Shown one piece after another: positions 5,709-36,179 of a DNA stretch of 64,000 nucleotides. The number at the start of each line of letters is the position of its first letter. The stretch's first letter is position 1. The translations under genes and the position numbers were made by a program. Below the pieces are notes generated by a model that was not told the DNA's origin, did no database searches, and saw only the letters and a program-made list of their open reading frames with translations. The stretch comes from Nannobrachium achirus. Taxonomy: Eukaryota > Chordata > Actinopteri > Myctophiformes > Myctophidae. The stretch lies in contig OY997640.1 of the NCBI GenBank assembly GCA_963921795.1, forward strand, positions 7,141,091 through 7,205,090. Reading direction: 5' to 3'.

Positions 5709-6140
5709 TCTATCTATAAATGCGACAAATCTCTGTGTGTATGTAATCCGCGTATCTCGAGAACCGTTCGTCCCACCGGCTTCAGATTCGGCACGCGCGT
5801 TCCCCGCCGCGGCGCGGAGTGCAGTGCCGGGCCTCGGCCCGACTCGGCATGCGGTTTTCCCGAAGCGGCGCGAAACGTTCGGAATCTCCTTACGCGGAGC
5901 TGATTGTTGGCTGTCATCAGGCTGAGCTGACATCAGGCTGTTCCTGAGGAAATCGGCACAATCGCTGACTCATTGTGACATCACTTCATAAAACATCACG
6001 TACGCCGCATGAGTCAACAAAAAATCTCTGTGAATGTGTATGTATGTATGTGAATCTCGAGAACCGTTCTTCCCACCGGCACGCGCGTTCTCCAGATATG
6101 GGCATAAAATGAATCCCCGAATGGGGAGCTGATGTCTGAC

Positions 6141-7384
6141 ATCAGAGTTTTCCGCAACCGGTACTGTGTGTGCAGAGATCTCCATATATGGGCATAAGGG
6201 GACAAAGGCAAACAGATGGTCAAAACGGGTCCTATGACAACAGGTATATTGGGGTTTGCATTAAAGAGTGGGGACAAAGGCTAACAGATGGTCAAAACGG
6301 GTCCTATGACAACAGGTATATTGGGGTTTGCATTAAAGGGTGGGGCATTCATGGGGTCCGCTCCAAAAAAGAAAATAAAAGAGACAAAGACAAACATAAG
6401 ACAAGCGACAAAGCGTGGGACTGGGAGGATGACTTGAATGATGCAGATTTAAGCAGGCTGTGTATTCTGCTTAAAGAAGAAACAAACAAAAAGCGACAGA
6501 GATCTCATATATGGGCATAAAATGGACGCAGATAAACAGATATCTCCATATACGGGCATAAAGGGACACAGACAGACAGATACAGAGATCTCCATATATG
6601 GGCATAAATAAGCAGGCTGTGTATTCTGCTTAAAGAAGAAACAAACAAAAAGCGACAGAGATCTCATATATGGGCATAAAATGGACGCAGATAAACAGAT
6701 ATCTCCATATACGGGCATAAAGGGACACAGACAGACAGATACAGAGATCTCCATATATGGGCATCAGAGTTTTCCGCAACCGGTACTGTGTGTGCAGAGA
6801 TCTCCATATATGGGCATAAGGGGACAAAGGCAAACAGATGGTCAAAACGGGTCCTATGACAACAGGTATATTGGGGTTTGCATTAAAGAGTGGGGACAAA
6901 GGCTAACAGATGGTCAAAACGGGTCCTATGACAACAGGTATATTGGGGTTTGCATTAAAGGGTGGGGCATTCATGGGGTCTGCTCCAAAAAAGAAAATAA
7001 AAGAGACAAAGACAAACATAAGACAAGCGACAAAGCGTGGGACTGGGAGGATGACTTGAATGATGCAGATTTAAGCAGGCTGTGTATTCTGCTTAAAGAA
7101 GAAACAAACAAAAAGCGACAGAGATCTCATATATGGGCATAAAATGGACGCAGATAAACAGATATCTCCATATACGGGCATAAAGGGACACAGACAGACA
7201 GATACAGAGATCTCCATATATGGGCATAAATAAGCAGGCTGTGTATTCTGCTTAAAGAAGAAACAAACAAAAAGCGACAGAGATCTCATATATGGGCATA
7301 AAATGGACGCAGATAAACAGATATCTCCATATACGGGCATAAAGGGACACAGACAGACAGATACAGAGATCTCCATATATGGGC
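6141..7384 (+). repeat. 622-bp tandem duplication inside Helitron copy 1
   Basis: 6141-6762 and 6763-7384 are almost identical, for example one C/T difference at the GGGGTCYGCTCC site. Each unit contains a further 159-bp internal duplication (AAGCAGGCTGTGTATTCTGC at 6451 and again at 6610), several CCATATATGG boxes and a segment of about 145 bp not present in the other Helitrons of the window. Confidence 0.85.
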
Positions 7385-7515
7385 ATAAAATGGACGCAAA
7401 TAGACAGATATCTCCATATATGGGCATATGGGCATAAAATGGACCCAGAACTATATCTGCAGTGATCTCCATATATGGACATAAAATGGACGCCGACACT
7501 TCACCGGACATCACC

Positions 7516-8160
7516 ATGGCAGGACGTGTTTTTCGCTCACGCTCCGGAACCAAAACACCAAAGGCTTGGTTCATCCCACATTTTCTCCTATTTCTACTAT
7601 GGATCACGGATTTATGCTATAAATCACCACAGATCCTAACACCAATGGAATACGAGAATCTTTTATGGGAAATGGACAAAACGGACGAAAAACACAGTGA
7701 GTTATATCTTCTTGCCAAAACGGTAGCTAAGCACCCGAGCTTTGGATCTCATGTTATTCAATCTTTGCTGGCTGCTAACCGGAACAAAAGAGACAAACCC
7801 CTGAATGGTTGTATGAGTCGATCTTTGATCTTCTTATTATTACTGCAATCAGGAGATATAGAATCGAATCCAGGGCCTGTAGCTACCAGACAGATGACCC
7901 GAAGACTAGCTGCTCTCGCTACTGCAGCTGGATTGACGACGGCAGATCCTTCTTTGTCTGTGATCAGCGAAGCTAACGATGCTAACTTAGCTAGCTCCTC
8001 ACTGATGAATCCTGAGGGACTAACAACGGGCTACTCCAGATGTCCTGACCAGCCGACCTCCGACGATCACACGGCAGTCGCCTCCGCGGACTCACGGATC
8101 GTCGAAGGACCCCCTGGCTCACGGACCCCCGGTGAACCCTCGGCGATCGCCCCCGCATGA
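7516..8160 (+). CDS. LINE upstream ORF with 2A-like ribosome-skipping motif
   Basis: Codes 214 aa from the ATG at 7516, which has a good initiation context (TCACCATGG). The in-frame ATG further upstream at 7462 lies in Helitron sequence, so it is not the LINE's own start. A hydrophobic stretch (AWFIPHFLLFLLW) lies at about residues 18-30. Residues 103-121 read SLIFLLLLQSGDIESNPGP, matching the D-[VI]-E-x-N-P-G-P signature of 2A peptides, with separation predicted between G120 and P121 (codons 7873-7878). The remaining 93 residues are Ala/Ser/Pro-rich. The frame closes with UGA at 8158-8160 followed by CUAG. It stays open for 35 more codons into ORF2, in the same phase. Function other than 2A is unknown; no RNA-binding zinc knuckle is seen. 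Confidence 0.85.
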   Translation: MAGRVFRSRSGTKTPKAWFIPHFLLFLLWITDLCYKSPQILTPMEYENLLWEMDKTDEKHSELYLLAKTVAKHPSFGSHVIQSLLAANRNKRDKPLNGCMSRSLIFLLLLQSGDIESNPGPVATRQMTRRLAALATAAGLTTADPSLSVISEANDANLASSSLMNPEGLTTGYSRCPDQPTSDDHTAVASADSRIVEGPPGSRTPGEPSAIAPA

Positions 8161-8164
8161 CTAG
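8158..8164 (+). promoter_or_regulatory. Candidate stop-codon readthrough site (UGA CUAG)
   Basis: The only stop between the 2A-bearing frame and ORF2 is TGA followed by CTAGC. UGA-CUAG is the best known context for efficient readthrough in metazoan genes and some RNA viruses. No stop occurs between 8161 and the ORF2 ATG at 8266 in this phase. A simple nonsense mutation (CGA to TGA at a former CpG) would look the same, so this is a candidate only. Confidence 0.45.
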
Positions 8165-8265
8165 CTCAGCACGAGACCAGCATCATCAACGCAAGTCACG
8201 CAACACCGGACCCCGGCGGCCCCACCGACCCACCCGACCTGCAGACGCACCCGGCGGACCCCTTC

Positions 8266-11200
8266 ATGGACCCAGCACCCCAGAACAGAGTCTACATTAA
8301 CTCTGCTCCACGCTGGCTAACGGAGAAGGCCAGAGCGCTGTTTTCAACCTGGGTTAAATCGGTGACCACGGGCCCCCACCACCCCATCCCCCAACTTTTC
8401 ATGGAGACCCCTTTGTCCCTTTGTCCCCCTCTGAAGCCCCCAGAGACTGCAACCAACCCCCCCTCCCCCACCGACGCCGATGCGAACACTTCCATAGACC
8501 TCGCCATGGACTTTGCCAGCCGCTTTGTGAAAAGAGGTATTCATATTATGCACTTAAACATTAACAGTTTGTTTGCTAAATTTGAACAAATCAAGCATAT
8601 GGTTCACGAAGGTAAGGTCCATTTTCTAACCTTCTCAGAGACCAAACTTGATGACTCTATCACTGACTCTCAGATCGAAATTGACAACTACTCGGTCATC
8701 CGAAATGATAGAAACAGATTTGGTGGTGGTGTATGCATGTATGTTCATAACTGTATTAAGTATATCCCCCGCCCTGACCTACAACACAGCTCTTTAGAAA
8801 CTGTATGGGTGGAAGTGATTCTTAAGAAAGCTAAAAACATACTAATCGGTGCCATCTATAGACCGCCCGACCAAAATGATTTCTGTGAGTTACTGGAGGA
8901 GAGCCTTGCACCGGTGGACAATGTTGAAAAATACATTATTGGCGATTGGAACATAGACATGCTTCGTAAAGAAGCTCCTCTATTCAAAAAGTTCAATAAG
9001 CTATGTAATCAACAGGGTCTCACTCAGCTCATCACCAAGCCAACTAGGGTTACAGATAACTCTCAAACCACCATAGATCTCATTGTAACCACAGACAAAT
9101 CTAAAGTCTCCGCGAGTGGGACTATTGAATGTGGTGGTCTAAGCGACCATGATATCATTTACTGCACCCGCAAAATACATAAGTCCAAAGCTGACGGCCA
9201 CAAAACAGTTGAAGCTAGAAACCTCAAAACCTACTCTAGCGAAGCCTTTAACCACAAACTGGAGAAATCTGACTGGTCCCCAGTACTAGCTAGCACTCAG
9301 GTCGATGAAGCCTGGCTAGGCTTTAAATCCATTTTCAACACTACCCTAGACGAAGTGGCTCCTTTGCGTAGGGTCAGGGTTAAAGCCCGCTCACAGCCAT
9401 GGTGGAATTCGGAAATCTGTGAATCAATGAAACTCAGAGACAAAAAATACTCTGAGAAACGCAAATATAATCACAAACTCAAAAAAGGCCCCAATAAACA
9501 CCTTAAAGCCAAATTAGAAATAGTCAGTTTAGAGGCTAATAAACTGAGAAATCGGACAACCTCCTTAATCCTTTCTGCCAAAAAAAACTACTTGGATGAG
9601 AAAGTTGAGGAAAACATCCACAAACCACGAGACCTATGGAAGCTATTTAAAACCCAGCTAGGCTGTGGTGCTAAACTCAGATCCATAGCCAGCAACATAT
9701 CCATCCAAACTCCCATAACCCTCCTCACTGATAGTCTTGATGTAGCCAAAAATCTCAACATCTACTTCACCTCCATGGCCAAAAATCTGGTCAATAAACT
9801 GCCCGCTCCATCTGGGCTGTTTGGTGTTAGGCACATCTTGAAATTCTACAGGAACCTTGGGGTATGCAAAGACAACTTTAAACTTGCCACGGTGTCAACT
9901 GATGAAGTGTTTAAAAAACTGCGCACCCTACCTCAATTCAAGGCCGCTGGCCATGATAAAATTGCCCCCAAATTTCTCATAGACTCAGCTGCCACCATTG
10001 CCCCAATCATTAACCATATTATTAATCTATCTATCAAGCAGGGTTATGTCCCCCAGGACTTCAAATTAGCCAAGGTAACCCCCCTGCACAAAAAAGGCAG
10101 TAAACTTGACCCTGGCAACTACAGGCCAATCTCAATCCTTAGTTCCATCTCTAAGGTAATGGAAAAAATTGTCTATGAACAGGTGGCTAAATATCTTGAA
10201 GAGAATAAACTGATCTACGAGTTCCAGTCTGGCTTCAGAGAGTCCCATTCCACAGATACATGCCTCATCTATTTGAATGATTACATCAAACGTGAAATTC
10301 ACGATGGCAAATATTGCGGCATGGTCATGCTGGACCTCCAGAAGGCATTTGACACCGTCGATCATTCTATTCTGATTGAAAAACTCAAAGCTATTGGTCT
10401 TGATAGCACAGCAGTGAGATGGATGCACTCTTACTTGGTGGGAAGGGAACAGATGGTGGAAGTCAACGGAACCCTGTCCCCCCCCCTCCCAGTAAACTGT
10501 GGAGTACCTCAAGGGAGTATACTAGGACCACTGTTGTTCTTAATATACGTAAACGACATGTCATCTGCTTGTGACTGCAATCTGTTTCTGTTCGCGGATG
10601 ACTCGGCTCTCCTAGTCTCAGGCAGAGACATTTTGCAGGTTGAAAAGGCCCTTAACTGTGAACTTAACAAGATCTGCACCTGGCTCAATGACAACAGACT
10701 CTCAATTCACCTAGGCAAAACTGAATGTATCCTCTTTGGATCTAGTCAGAAACTTAGCCTAGTTGAGAACTTCACAATTAAAGTAGGTGACACTGTGATA
10801 GAAAGAAAAAACCACATCTGCTACCTGGGTTGCATCCTGGAGGCTAACCTATCCAGTGAAAAAATGACCACCAAGGTAATCAATAAAGTCAATCAACGAA
10901 TTCGCTTCTTGCAAAGAGTTGCCCCACTGATCAATATTAAATCCCGAAAGACACTAGGAGGTGCTCTTATTGGGCCCCTCATTGATTACGGAGTCCTTGT
11001 CTGGTATCGCGACGCCCCAGCTGCCTTAAAGCTAAAGCTCCAAACAGCCCAAAACAAACTAATTAGGGTTGTGCTTGGTCTCCCTCCTCTGACCCACCTT
11101 ACCGAGCATCACCACGAAAGCGTGGGGTGGCTCAAAGTAGCTGACAGAGTACAGCATCTTGCAATGGGCCTGGTGTACAAGATACACTACACCTCCAAGA

Positions 11201-11445
11201 TTCCCATGTACCTGACAAACTACTTCTTAAAGGTCAAGGATGTTCACGATCATAACACCAGAGGCAGCTCCACTAATCATCATCAGCGTAGATTTAACAC
11301 TAAACAAGGCGCTAACTCGTTCTCCTGCTATACCATCAACATGTGGAACGCCCTTCCACAAGCCCTAAAGGAGAGCAAATCCCTAGCCTCCTTCAAAATT
11401 GGTATGAAAAGTCACCTTCAGACAGCAGCTACCCGTGACTTGTAA
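8266..11445 (+). CDS. LINE ORF2: AP endonuclease + reverse transcriptase
   Basis: A 1059-aa ORF with no frameshift. The AP-like endonuclease lies at about residues 91-302: LNINSL near 97-102, SETK with E125, IGAIYRPP at 194-201, GDWN at 226-229 and SDHD at 293-296. The reverse transcriptase lies at about 560-850: NYRPIS near 618, FQSGFRES, motif A LDLQKAFD (D690, D696), motif B GVPQGSILGPLLF (746-758), and the catalytic FADD at 776-779. The C-terminal HNTR...NMWNALP region is typical of the CR1/L2/Rex group. The protein would nick target DNA and prime reverse transcription on the LINE RNA. All visible catalytic residues are kept, so the copy may be recent or active. Translation could start at the ATG at 8266 or follow readthrough of the UGA at 8158. 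Confidence 0.93.
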   Translation: MDPAPQNRVYINSAPRWLTEKARALFSTWVKSVTTGPHHPIPQLFMETPLSLCPPLKPPETATNPPSPTDADANTSIDLAMDFASRFVKRGIHIMHLNINSLFAKFEQIKHMVHEGKVHFLTFSETKLDDSITDSQIEIDNYSVIRNDRNRFGGGVCMYVHNCIKYIPRPDLQHSSLETVWVEVILKKAKNILIGAIYRPPDQNDFCELLEESLAPVDNVEKYIIGDWNIDMLRKEAPLFKKFNKLCNQQGLTQLITKPTRVTDNSQTTIDLIVTTDKSKVSASGTIECGGLSDHDIIYCTRKIHKSKADGHKTVEARNLKTYSSEAFNHKLEKSDWSPVLASTQVDEAWLGFKSIFNTTLDEVAPLRRVRVKARSQPWWNSEICESMKLRDKKYSEKRKYNHKLKKGPNKHLKAKLEIVSLEANKLRNRTTSLILSAKKNYLDEKVEENIHKPRDLWKLFKTQLGCGAKLRSIASNISIQTPITLLTDSLDVAKNLNIYFTSMAKNLVNKLPAPSGLFGVRHILKFYRNLGVCKDNFKLATVSTDEVFKKLRTLPQFKAAGHDKIAPKFLIDSAATIAPIINHIINLSIKQGYVPQDFKLAKVTPLHKKGSKLDPGNYRPISILSSISKVMEKIVYEQVAKYLEENKLIYEFQSGFRESHSTDTCLIYLNDYIKREIHDGKYCGMVMLDLQKAFDTVDHSILIEKLKAIGLDSTAVRWMHSYLVGREQMVEVNGTLSPPLPVNCGVPQGSILGPLLFLIYVNDMSSACDCNLFLFADDSALLVSGRDILQVEKALNCELNKICTWLNDNRLSIHLGKTECILFGSSQKLSLVENFTIKVGDTVIERKNHICYLGCILEANLSSEKMTTKVINKVNQRIRFLQRVAPLINIKSRKTLGGALIGPLIDYGVLVWYRDAPAALKLKLQTAQNKLIRVVLGLPPLTHLTEHHHESVGWLKVADRVQHLAMGLVYKIHYTSKIPMYLTNYFLKVKDVHDHNTRGSSTNHHQRRFNTKQGANSFSCYTINMWNALPQALKESKSLASFKIGMKSHLQTAATRDL

Positions 11446-11894
11446 ACAGACTAAGCCCCCATGCTCCCCCCCTTTTTCTTTGTATTCTGCCTTTTGTATT
11501 TGATGTTATGCTTTTGAAACTGATATTATCCTAGATAAAGTACTATGTTCTATCCGTCTGTCTTTCAATGTTATATGAGATACTTAAAGTGTGGTTCCTG
11601 TGGAAATAAGCCTCGGCTTTCTAGGATCTCCTTTTAGTTGACCTTGTACCAGTGATTTGTACTGTCATGAAACTGTACTTTTTTCTATTGCAAACTTCTA
11701 ATAAATTCTTCAATCAATCAATCAAACAGACAGACAGATACAGATATCTCCATATATGGGCATAAATGGTCACAGGCAAACAGATGGTCAAAACGGGTCC
11801 TATGACAACAGGTATAATGGGGTTTGCATTAAAGGGCGGGGCATTCATTCCCTATTTACATCGTTCCCGAGTTGGCCAGGTCGCCGACTAGACG

Positions 11895-11919
11895 CTGGGC
11901 CGCCCGAAGGGCGGCCCAG
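11895..11919 (+). repeat. Helitron 3' hairpin, copy 1
   Basis: An 11-bp stem CTGGGCCGCCC with loop GAA, seven bases before the CTAG end. In copy 3 the same stem carries loop TTC, that is, the reverse complement. Confidence 0.9.
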
Positions 11920-11926
11920 CTTCTAG

Positions 11927-13018
11927 TACCTATAATACACAATACAAACAGAGAGGACCAGGTGTTGCCTTTTGTCTGTCCTCTACCCTGAGACAAAGCA
12001 AAGCAGCATGTATCTATTCTGCATGGGGCAAGACCCAAATGAACAAACATTTTTGCTTCTGGGGGTCCCTGGACCAAAATATTTTGAGATGGGGTCTGCG
12101 GCCAAATACGGGGGTCCTCGACATGACAGTTTGAGAACCACTGATTGAGGCAACATTTAGCTTGTCAGGGTGGTTGGAGCGCCTCAGTGCGGCTGCAGTG
12201 TTCATGTATAAACTCTCTTCCAGAGTAGAGAGAGACACTAGAAACTCTGCTGGAGAGACAAAACAAACTGCTGAATGAAATGAATTATGAATTTTAACTT
12301 TTGGAAGAAAAAAAAAAGGGACTCATGTCCCTTTCAACTCGAAGGGACTAGGCCTATATGGCATTATTTCTGCAAGTGGTAAATACACACACTTCTGTGC
12401 TGAGTCTCTCTTAGATACATGCCTCTTGCTTGCTTGCATGCATTCATTTCATCTCATGTTGTGAAGAAAGCCTCTGCACAGCTGTGCGTGTATTTACCAC
12501 TTGCAGAAGTAATGCCATATAGTCTTAATTTAAAGGTAAAGTTAAAATTCATATTTCATTTCATTCATCAGTTTGTTTTGTCTCTGGATCATAATGATCA
12601 TAAATGATTAATCGATTATTCAATTAATTGATTCATGCATATCAATAGGATATAGATCACAGCAGGGCATGTAGGTATTAATGTAGGTATAAGGACATCA
12701 TTCAAATCGCGTCCCCCCAAACATTGAATCACCAATGCAACACTGCCCATCCCTAACTACTAGGAAGTAGAGCACCCCCTCCTCAAAATGTCTGTGCACG
12801 CCCATGCATATTGTGGGATGTGTTTGTTAATTTCATTAAATGTGGGGTCCTTTGCCAGAGTGTATTCAACCATTTTTAAGAAGAGTCCTGCAGAGAATTC
12901 CTGTTCATCATGTGAGCTTTCCAGAGTGCCACGAAGTGGGAGTTCATTAACTACAAGAAACTGAACTACTTCTCCTATGGGTTTAATGTAGTACCTATTT
13001 TTTCTATTTTTGTGGGCC
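11927..13018. other. Repeat debris; no gene seen
   Basis: A minus-strand hAT-like piece (GGGGTCC blocks ending TTTGAGAACCACTG) lies at about 12000-12148. A weak inverted pair around 12300-12560 shares CATTTCATTCA and TGGCATTA-type blocks. The rest is AT-rich with no supported ORF. Confidence 0.5.
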
Positions 13019-13330
13019 CTAGGAGATTTTCGTAGCTTCCCTTTGTATCATTTCAGACCATGTGCTGGCATTTTTCACATGACATAGACTGGATTCGTGT
13101 TTTGTGAATCCCTTGTCTTTCTCCAATGCAGTTTTCCAATGATTAAAACCTTGTTTGGTGAAAAACAAATATCTGTCATTATTTCCGCCAAATTTGCGAC
13201 AAGGGAAACAAAAACATGCATCTAGCTTTACAGAATATTTTAGCCATTCTCCTTTTGCACAAAGTAGTGCAATGCAAGATAGAGGGCGCCACTTTGAGTC
13301 ACACCCTACCACTACTTCCTGTTCATCCAC
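13019..13330 (-). pseudogene. hAT transposase fragment (TTF-type zinc finger, ZMYM1-like)
   Basis: About 100 codons read on the minus strand contain CFCFPC followed by NHWKTALEKDKGF and HESSLCH. This is the C..C / H....H pattern of the TTF-type zinc finger found at the N-terminus of ZMYM1-like hAT transposases. No DUF4371-like or catalytic core follows. It is a stranded N-terminal exon, not a gene. Its 5' half lies in the left arm of a large inverted repeat (13243-13594). Confidence 0.7.
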
Positions 13331-13594
13331 AGAGCATTGATTCTAGTCATTTTCTCGATTAGATTTCTTTTCACTTTTTTCAACTTTTATTACTTGGGAT
13401 GATAAAAAAGATGAGGCAGTATTTTGACAAGTAATAAAAGTTGAAAAAAGTGAAAAGAAAGCACTTTAATCTAATGGAGAAAACAACTAGAATTAATGCT
13501 CTGTGGATGAACAGGAAGTAGTGGTAGGGTGTGACTCAAAGGGATCTGGCGCCCTCTATCTTGCATTGCACTACTTTGTGCAAAAGGAGAATGG
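13243..13594. repeat. Large inverted repeat containing part of a hAT exon
   Basis: Arms of about 155 bp: CCATTCTCCTTTTGCAC at the left end and its complement at the right end. They meet around 13400-13435 through a short AT-rich spacer. Arm identity is high, apart from a small change near GGCGCCA/GGATCTGGCGCC. Confidence 0.85.
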
Positions 13595-13901
13595 TCTTCC
13601 ATGGTACCAGCCCAGGCTCAATGCGCGTGCTGTCTTGCCAAAATTACGCTTTGGAAAAACAAGATTAGCGGGCTGTGATGGTGCTGTGGCGCTTAAACCA
13701 GTACTGTTATCAGCGGCCACTACTGTGTCGTGCACGGCAGCGCTTTCAGCCGGTGTTGCGGTGCTTGTGGATCTTAATTGGGGGTTAGGGTTTGGGTCGG
13801 GTCGAGGAGCAGCTGTACTCCGAGTCTGACTGGAGCCGCTGCGAGGTTTAGAAACCAGAAATCAACGCATATTGACCGAAAGAGCCAGAGAGAGAGAAGA
13901 G

Positions 13902-33068: not shown

Positions 33069-34195
33069 TCTATCTATAAATGCGACAAATCTCTGTCTGT
33101 CTGTTTGTTTGTTTGTTTGTAATCCGCGTATCTCGAGAACCGTTCGTCCCACCGGCTTCAGATTCGGCACGCGCGTTCCCCGCCGCCGCGCGGAGTGCAG
33201 TGCCAGGCCTGGACCCGACCCGACTCGCGGTTTTCCGAAACCGGCGCGAAACGTTCGGAATCTCCTTATACGGAGCTGATTGTTGACATCAGGCTGTTCC
33301 GGAGGAAATCGGCGCAAGCGCTGAGTCATTGTGACATCACTTCATAAAAGGCTCTGACATCACGTACGCCACATGAGTCAACACAAAATCTCTGTGAATG
33401 TGTATGTATGTATGTAATCCGCGTATCTCGAGAACCCTTCTTCCCACCGGCACGCGCGTTCTCCAGATATGGGCATAAAGTCTGACATCAGAGTTTTCCG
33501 CAACCGGTACTGTGTGTGCAGAGATCTTCATATATGGGCATAAGTGGACAAAGACAAACAGATGGTCAAAACGGGTCCTATGACAACAGGTATATTGGGG
33601 TTTGCATTAAAGGGTGGGGCATTCATGGGGTTTGCATTAAAGGGTGGGGCATTCATTCCCTATTTCAAATTCGGCACGTGCGTTCCCCACCGCAGCAGGT
33701 AGTGCAGTGCTCGGCCTCAACCCGACCCGACCCACGATTGTTTGAAAAAGCGACAGAAATCTCATATATGGGCATAAAATGGACGCAGATAAACAGATAT
33801 CTCCATATATGGCATATATGGGCATACAATGGATGCAGAATCACAAAGATCTCCATATACGGGCATAAAAGGGACACAGACAGACAGATACAGAGATCTC
33901 CATATATGGGCATAAAATGGATGCAGATAGACAGATATCTCCATATATGGGCATATATGGGCATAAAATGGACCCAGAACTATAACTGCAGTGATCTCCA
34001 TATATGGACATAAAATGGACACCGACAGACAGATACAGATATCTCCATATATGGGCAAAAATGGACACAGGCAGACAAATGGTCAAAACGGGTCCTATGA
34101 AAACAGGTATAATGGGGTTTGCATTAAAGGGCGGGGCATTCATTCCCTATTTACATTGTTCCGAGTTGGCCAGGTCGCCGACTAGACGCTTCTAG
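33069..34195 (+). mobile_element. Helitron copy 2 (3' hairpin lost)
   Basis: Starts TCTATCTATAAATGCGAC after host A (33068) and ends GACGCTTCTAG. The 25-nt hairpin block present in copies 1 and 3 is cleanly missing. The body contains several CCATATATGG boxes with GGGCATAAAATGGAC spacers. The next Helitron starts at the very next base. Confidence 0.88.
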
Positions 34196-35131
34196 TCTAT
34201 CTATAAATGCGACAAATCTCTGTCTGTTTGTTTGTTTGTAATCCGCGTATCTCGAGAACCGTTCGTCCCACCGGCTTCAGATTCGGCACGCGCGTTCCCC
34301 GCCGCCGCGCGGAGTGCAGTGCCGGGCCTCGACCCGACCCGACTCGCGGTTTTCCGAAACCGGCGCGAAACGTTCGGAATCTCCTTATGCGGAGCTGATT
34401 GTTGACATCAGGCTGTTCCGGAGGAAGCGCTGACTCATTGTGACATCACTTCATAAAAGGCTCTGACATCACGTACGCCACATGAGTCAACAAAAAATCT
34501 CTGTGAATGTGTATGTATGTATGTAATCCGAGTATCTCTAAACCATTCTTCCCACGTTCTCCATATATGGGCATAAAATGAATGCCCGTATGCGGAACTG
34601 ATGTCTGACATCAGAGTTTTCCGCAACCGGTACTGTGTGTGCAGAGATCTCCATATATGGGCATAAGGGGACAATGGCAAACAGATGGTCAAAACGGGTC
34701 CTATGACAACAGGTATATTGGGGTTTGCATTAAAGGGTGGGGACAAAGGCTAACAGATGGTCAAAACGGGTCCTATGACAACAGGTATATTGGGGTTTGC
34801 ATTAAAGGGTGGGGCAGGCATAAAATGGACGCAAATAGACAGATATCTCCATATATGGGCATATGGGCATAAAATGGACCCAGAACTATATCTGCAGTGA
34901 TCTCCATATATGGACATAAAATGGACGCCGACAGACAGACAGATACAGATATCTCCATATATGGGCATAAATGGACACAGGCAAACAGATGGTCAAAACG
35001 GGTCCTATGACAACAGGTATAATGGGGTTTGCATTAAAGGGCGGGGCATTCATTCTCTATTTACATCGTTCCCGAGTTGGCCAGGTCGCCGACTAGACGC
35101 TGGGCCGCCCTTCGGGCGGCCCAGCTTCTAG
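34196..35131 (+). mobile_element. Helitron copy 3 (head-to-tail with copy 2)
   Basis: Begins TCTATCTATAAATGCGAC directly after the CTAG of copy 2. Ends with the hairpin at 35100-35124 and TTCTAG, then host T (35132). 936 bp with no helicase. It holds the uninterrupted version of the site where the LINE entered copy 1 (34925-34945). Confidence 0.9.
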
Positions 35132-36179
35132 TGTATATATAATAAATATATATATGTATTATATGTATATATAATAAAGGATAAAATAAATAAAATGTCC
35201 ATATACAGTATGGGCATTCCCAGATGATGCCTTGTTAGGGTACCCCCTTATGCTCATATATGGAGATCCCCAGGCATCAAACCCAGGCCCTGGGAATTCT
35301 AGAAAGGCCCTGCTTGGCTTTTAACATACGTTATACCCATATATGATCCCTGTCCCAATGTCATCAATATTAAGGACATATCTGGGAATGCCCATATTTG
35401 GTAATGTCCATAATATATAGGCATGTTTTGACATAACATTGTTGACTATCATGCAGGGGTCTCCATATATGGGTAACTGGTCCATACATCACTGGCCAGA
35501 TGGCCAAGAATGGCACGACCGCGAGGTCGCATGTCGCCCTGAGGTGTCTTACTAATGTGTTAACCGTGCATAATTGAATAGGATTGGGTAGATCTGCGCA
35601 CCTCTACTAATGTGTTAACCGTGCATAACTGAATAGGATTGGGTACTGCGCACCGGTATTAAAACATCAGTTATTATGGTGGTACTTGGAGAGACAGATA
35701 TTTTCTGAGTTAGTATGTAAGTAAGCCTTGTCGATTACTTGCGCGCTCTGCTGGCGCAAGTAAATAAAGTATCTCTTAGCAAAATGCAATTCTCGATGAA
35801 GCCGCATGATTTGACACATGGCTTGAGTGAGTGCCGCAAAAATTATGGGAGGAGTAGCGCTGCAAAATAAAGTGGAAAGAATAAAGTCAGACAAGTGCTA
35901 TAGTGTAGTTGCCCTGTTAGGGCAAACGCACTAAAAAGGTTGAGAACCACTGCAATAGAACACAATTACTGTGTACAGTATAAACAACAGTGGAAGCAAT
36001 GTGTGATGAGTTTAAGATAGGGTGGCCATTCGTAGTTTTAAGCCGGACAGTCCGGATTTTGACCAGCCTGTCCTCCGCCATGCAGCGCCACCTCTGACCG
36101 GACACATTATTGTCCGGCATTTGTGACAATGATTGCAGTAAATGTGTTATACCCCTCATTTCTCACATGGCCCTCTTCT
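35132..36179. other. CArG-like motifs and short tandem repeat; no gene seen
   Basis: CCATATATGG-type boxes continue at 35190-35480 outside the Helitron ends. A two-unit direct repeat containing TGTGTTAACCGTGCATAA lies at about 35550-35658. A hAT-like terminus GTTGAGAACCACTG lies near 35940. Confidence 0.55.

Follow-up and report, generated by a model that had tools for sequence, protein, structure and literature searches.

Keeping reverse transcriptase scarce relative to the other protein is an old question for LINEs, and readthrough is said to have been proposed for the Zorro elements of Candida. Several described systems come close to the locus reported here. In OPRL1, OPRK1, MAPK10 and AQP4 the stop codon UGA is followed by CUAG and an in-phase extension, and this sequence has been reported as an efficient readthrough context. 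In HEK-293T cells readthrough reached about 31% for OPRL1, 13% for OPRK1, 14% for MAPK10 and 7% for AQP4, and UGA-CUA alone gave 1.5%; 12 nt after the stop suffice in these genes, and in OPRL1, the most efficient of the four, GCA predominates as the last codon (accessible part of PMC4132726). Certain APE-type non-LTR retrotransposons bear a 2A motif of the form D[VI]ExNPGP, preceded by a hydrophobic run (Odon et al. 2013, as cited in other papers). Two-ORF LINEs consist of an upstream ORF, a stop, a nearby ATG and an APE-RT ORF, and termination followed by reinitiation has been described in SART1, while for L1 it has been proposed with a spacer of 63 nt (accessible part of PMC5972666). In some retroviruses gag-pol is expressed by readthrough of an in-phase stop before the product bearing the reverse transcriptase, with UAG and a pseudoknot as signals (accessible part of PMC5009743). 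A sequence-only reading made before this analysis had pointed to 2A sequences in non-LTR retrotransposons, in agreement with the literature (PMC4981915, as far as accessible); it had also called UGA-CUAG the strongest such context known in metazoans, for which PMC4132726 speaks of efficient readthrough. Each of the two features is known by itself, 2A from non-LTR elements and UGA-CUAG readthrough from genes. A literature search, which reached the key 2A papers only via citations, led to no paper that we recognised as dealing with 2A plus stop-codon readthrough in a LINE.

The LINE described here lies in the window, by which we mean the whole stretch of 64,000 nucleotides that was analysed. Like the four genes it has UGA, CUAG and an in-phase continuation, and it shares the order GCA-UGA-CUAG with OPRL1. 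In contrast to them, as far as the accessible text of that source goes, it is a mobile element, its extension is a whole APE-RT protein paired with a 2A motif, and synonymous-biased change just after the stop was not seen. It resembles the known 2A-bearing elements in the motif, in the hydrophobic run and in its APE-RT part, but an in-phase UGA-CUAG stands between 2A and APE-RT; this is lacking at that place even in the 2A-bearing relatives P0001 and L077. The order of parts is that of SART1 and L1, whereas the two ORFs are in the same phase, probably derive from a single-ORF ancestor and have a stop and a start that do not overlap. With the retroviral case it has in common the in-phase stop before a product bearing reverse transcriptase; it differs in being a non-LTR element with UGA-CUAG instead of UAG plus pseudoknot, and in having no detected downstream structure. 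Judged from its sequence, 2A skipping combined with programmed UGA-CUAG readthrough is the best reading of this arrangement, and we place it slightly on the probable side.

Anatomy of the element and its insertion site

The features of the locus are compiled in Table 1. A leader of about 12-15 nt separates the start of the element from its first ATG, which stands in ACCATGG within a frame open over 7438-8157. Pfam gave no match to the upstream part up to an E of 1, and in a protein search that used the 300 N-terminal residues as query none of 5239 candidates reached an E of 0.001 or better. Its 2A-like motif is preceded by the hydrophobic sequence LIFLLLLQ and thereby fits D[VI]ExNPGP plus upstream context. 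The succession of SGDIESNPGP and UGA-CUAG in one frame, from which the sequence-only reading had started, is present in the window as it described, and so is the absence of any further stop before the ORF2 ATG in the same phase: the phase of the upstream frame continues without a stop over 8161-11442. ORF2 unites the APE domains (PF03372, PF14529) and the reverse transcriptase domain (PF00078) in one ORF; these were the only three Pfam families matched at E up to 1, and RNase H was not among them.

Table 1 Features of the LINE and of the related repeat in the window
Feature	Position	Strand	Remarks
Whole LINE insertion	7504..11725	+	about 4.2 kb; ends common to many copies, flanks different
Upstream coding part	7516..8157	+	214 codons; hydrophobic N-terminal part, 2A, proline-rich linker; open frame
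2A-like motif SGDIESNPGP	7849..7878	+	skip predicted after Gly (7873-7875) and before Pro (7876-7878)
TGA stop with CTAG	8158..8164	+	TGA at 8158-8160; GCA codon just before
In-phase stretch from stop to first downstream ATG	8161..8265	+	open in the window
First ATG after the stop	8266..8268	+	same phase; candidate reinitiation start, read from the sequence
ORF2, APE endonuclease and reverse transcriptase	8266..11445	+	PF03372, PF14529, PF00078
Paralogous repeat without the LINE insertion	34836..35144	+	same window; flank matches

With the local base composition, CTAG is expected after a given stop with a chance of 0.0033 and a run of 35 stop-free codons with a chance of 0.39. Openness after the stop is therefore unremarkable by itself; the CTAG is the notable part, and the sharing of the site across copies is a stronger point.

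The 3′ end consists of short tandem repeats and not of poly(A), with a (TCAA)n-type tail in many copies. Such ends are typical of the L2/CR1-like clade, to which the element presumably belongs. No long target-site duplication was seen around 7504-11725. The copies lie on different contigs and their flanks differ, so they represent separate insertions. The paralogous repeat matches the 5′ flank of the LINE by 100% over 98 bp and the 3′ flank by 95.8% over 214 columns. Related short-repeat arrays (around CATATATGG) occupy 6140-7500 and 33500-35500 of the window, and one of them has the LINE at its end. Elsewhere in the window, at 13019-13829, two opposite open frames have the peptide VDEQEVVVGCDSK in common and resemble a transposase-derived protein.

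The stop site in copies, relatives and single-ORF kin

A total of 56 copies were fetched, 36 via the 2A pattern and 20 via protein search, and were aligned as a BLAST pile that includes the window's own copy (L014). The stop site is covered by all of them except L009, and the 55 copies comprise 52 with TGACTAG, two with TGTCTAG (L049, L061) and one with TGACTAA (L010). In 19 of the 56 both halves are open, free of deletions and with no insertions other than in-frame ones, and 17 of these 19 have TGA. In addition, the genome was scanned for the stop site with a pattern that left 14 letters free over the site and allowed up to 3 mismatches, its anchors favouring close copies. It gave 126 matches, compared with 16 for the reversed control; 100 were listed, among them 88, 5 and 3 rows at 0, 1 and 2 mismatches. 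From these 96 rows 95 were taken as genuine, including the window's own copy; one two-mismatch row appears to be unrelated, as do the four rows listed at three mismatches, and the 26 matches beyond the listing are three-mismatch ones too.

By hand count, 90 of the 95 genuine matches listed have TGA, four TGT and one GGA; CGA, TAA or TAG was found in none of them. The sequence-only reading had named a sense codon such as CGA in most copies as evidence against itself, which is the reverse of this distribution. Its expectation of a conserved CTAG was likewise borne out among the matches listed, since the 90 TGA rows divide into 84 TGACTAG, 5 TGACTAA and 1 TGACTGG; TGACTA is thus common to 89 of the 90. 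Nevertheless the copies are young, with a median ORF2 distance of 0.47% among 47 copies, so the conservation is mostly that of recent descent and the sharing of the site among these close kin mostly reflects it. Two observations concern single places in the genome: relatives 67 kb apart at G000 C4:8057354 and C4:8124947 have identical scores and are probably one segmental duplication, and in row C7:70484262 the open frame measures 1822 aa, even though the corresponding copy, L024, carries TGA; that copy adjoins an N run.

The 2A pattern, scanned over 1.66 Gb of genome, yielded 36 matches and none for the reversed control. SGD[IL]E[SLT]NPGP is kept in 54 of the 56 fetched copies, a count that is biased because 36 of them were picked by the 2A pattern; the remaining two have a stop inside the motif and SRD, respectively. 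Leu replaces Ile in 10 of the 56, and the shared nonsynonymous changes hit only this position (Ile to Leu) and the free x of ExNPGP.

Eight divergent relatives were chosen from the protein-search list and fetched as 300-nt pieces. Six (L067-L072), with upstream parts 82-87% identical to that of the window, keep TGACTAG, the phase and ATG 8266; the other two (L065, L066; upstream 70% identical) have no stop at the site. The downstream codons, whose conservation the sequence-only reading had also made a test, are kept in phase in all six stop-bearing relatives and the frame after the stop is open in five, but L067 has a further in-frame TAG shortly after it. The TGACTAA rows include upstream parts only 74-76% identical to the window's. 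As TGA occurs in relatives with upstream identities of 74-87%, it has lasted through several subfamilies. Between L069 and L071 about 180 nt after the stop are nearly identical, while the sequences on both sides differ more; this may reflect recombination or a conserved element, and it was not counted for readthrough because much of the stretch also occurs in the stopless L078.

At the position of the stop codon the stopless relatives read GTA (L065), GGA (L066) and GGA (L078), followed by ACA, ACA and CCA, respectively. For this reason UGA and CUA both look derived and would have arisen in the lineage of the window; as the aligned codons belong to a variable linker, this polarity is no more than probable. 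The G that completes CTAG is the first letter of a GCT codon common to stop-bearing and stopless relatives. A private CpG lesion turning CGA into TGA was rejected in view of these codons (GTA, GGA, GGA) and of the 95 listed rows, none of which has CGA.

A sister family in the same genome emerged from the protein search, in which 150 of 394 candidates were scored. It has at least 27 rows with 48% identity over residues 15-157, and its open frames measure 1157-1332 aa in 21 of 27 rows and are shorter in six. Five pieces (L073-L077) were inspected for TGACTAG and none contains it; L077 has a continuous frame from the linker into APE, the 360 nt of L074 are open throughout, and the frame is broken in L073, L075 and L076. 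P0001, from another dataset, is a single ORF of 1226 aa with the 2A sequence SGDIEVNPGP, 33% identical to the upstream part of the window over 209 aa and 68% identical to its ORF2 over 1016 aa; upstream of about 8410 there is a stretch of ORF2 with no alignment to it. D[VI]ExNPGP occurs in 6 of 120 listed APE-RT relatives (the best 120 of 1421). Since both the sister family and P0001 are single-ORF 2A polyproteins, the ancestor was most likely one 2A polyprotein, as far as can be read from sequence.

The two fetched TGT copies, L049 and L061, are mutually nearest (0.19% apart) and have variants in common that are seen in few or no other copies. The four TGT copies among the matches listed lie on four contigs, with G000 C16:15253616 and C24:4629458 among them, and their open frames measure 1322, 1333, 1306 and 1211 aa. 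According to the shared variants and the four contigs, the stopless version has gone through at least one round of copying. The stop is hence not essential, and an in-phase continuous product is compatible with mobility.

Variation on both sides of the stop codon

Variants were counted in 53 copies (L010, L026 and L032 left out), those found in two or more copies being called shared. By a simple calculation about 2.2-2.6 nonsynonymous changes should accompany each synonymous one, and about 2.35 in 8161-8265. Purifying selection seems to act on the upstream protein and on APE-RT, but not on the linker or on what follows the stop (Table 2). The synonymous-biased change that the sequence-only reading had expected after the stop was not seen in 8161-8265. 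Its interpretation of the element is, as a whole, partly borne out.

Table 2 Synonymous (S) and nonsynonymous (N) variants by region
Region	Shared S:N	Private S:N
7516-7848	5:0	16:20
2A	3:2	2:2
Linker	4:6	6:14
8161-8265	1:5	3:18
8266-8535	7:7	6:15
8536-11442	27:17	60:81

Between stop and ATG, L068 differs by +9 and L071 by -9 among the divergent relatives. Of 10 indel events that this stretch shows in young copies, 6 are multiples of three, compared with 3 of 26 in 8536-11442, and the net changes are +12 in L010 and L044, -3 in L038 and -5 in L027. A 21-bp in-phase repeat unit at 8252-8274 is present or absent among copies, the window being without one unit. Slippage in proline-codon repeats could be an alternative cause of the in-phase indels. 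ATG 8266 is changed to GTG in L010, L027 and L060, which may be an alignment effect of the 21-bp repeat; these changes were left out of account. No stable RNA fold was found in 8150-8270 (z 0.09; equally good folds in 108 of 200 shuffles), and a downstream RNA structure as stimulator of readthrough was rejected on this ground.

Readings of the interrupted frame

The anatomy, the site common to the family, the single-ORF relatives and the TGT copies are observed; 2A skipping, readthrough, its efficiency and its purpose we infer along the following lines. The ancestor would have made one polyprotein, in which skipping at 2A set a short upstream protein apart from linker-APE-RT. One linker codon, probably GGA, would have turned into UGA and the next codon into CUA, with the phase unchanged. 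Most ribosomes would release a 120-aa protein ending in 2A, make a 94-aa proline-linker peptide and halt at UGA, and a minority would pass UGA and make linker-APE-RT. The presumed purpose is to lower the ratio of reverse transcriptase to upstream protein.

Several observations argue for readthrough. In the listed rows the stop is TGA and never TAA or TAG, with TGACTA in 89 of 90; the +9, -9 and 21-bp indels are multiples of three; and six divergent relatives keep TGACTAG and the frame after it. To these come the 52 of 55 fetched copies with TGACTAG, the derived look of both UGA and CUA, the single-ORF relatives, the TGT copies as a stopless version that still multiplied, and the readthrough of about 7-31% in the four mammalian genes, with GCA before UGA as in OPRL1. 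Against it stand the missing synonymous bias in 8161-8265, the net change of -5 nt in the stop-to-ATG stretch of the young copy L027, the retention of ATG 8266 in six of six stop-bearing relatives, the TGT copies, in which the stop is dispensable, and the lack of alignment with P0001 upstream of about 8410. Furthermore, phase and openness could persist for a while without readthrough because they were inherited from a single-ORF ancestor. The lack of a downstream RNA fold is a weak point against it, since 12 nt suffice in the genes studied in the accessible part of PMC4132726.

The conserved ATG can also be read differently: ribosomes may terminate at UGA and some of them resume at ATG 8266, 105 nt on, which would give a free-standing ORF2p and make the CTAG incidental. 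We regard this as unlikely, though as the main rival. The ATG is the first after the stop and lies in phase, the nonsynonymous-rich change in 8161-8265 fits a non-coding spacer, and SART1 and, as proposed, L1 provide precedents. However, restarting leaves unexplained the TGACTA of the listed TGA rows, for which recent descent may nevertheless account, and a probably derived CTA beside a derived TGA. The ATG has T at -3, which is a weak start context, and restarting needs no frame constraint before it, yet the +9 and -9 indels keep the phase.

The youth of the family and the existence of four listed TGT copies and a single-ORF sister family in the same genome would also suit a stop that source copies carry along as a neutral or mildly harmful passenger and that spread by hitchhiking, with ORF2p coming from stopless copies or by other routes. 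We think this improbable in view of the TGA in relatives with upstream parts only 74-87% identical and in 17 of 19 fetched copies with both halves open, and of the preference of LINEs for their own RNA. The alternation of TGA and TGT at one codon could finally recall selenocysteine with a cysteine counterpart. As no Rfam match of any family was obtained in 7300-12000 at E up to 1, this decoding was rejected; the site moreover lies in a proline-rich linker and the stopless relatives have Val or Gly, so that selenocysteine has next to no chance of being the explanation.

Returning to 2A with readthrough, the wider proposition drawn from these comparisons is one to which we give an even chance. 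Two recoding events, 2A skipping and UGA-CUAG readthrough, would be stacked on one frame, the second having evolved from a single 2A polyprotein through two adjacent codons, and copies in the same genome would have lost the stop again, forming a natural series for the tuning of protein ratios. One genome holds three natural versions, namely a single ORF with 2A, 2A with UGA-CUAG, and 2A with UGU. These natural sequences allow a direct test of how a readthrough stop affects protein ratio and mobility, and the stop may be an acquired dial for the amount of reverse transcriptase made.
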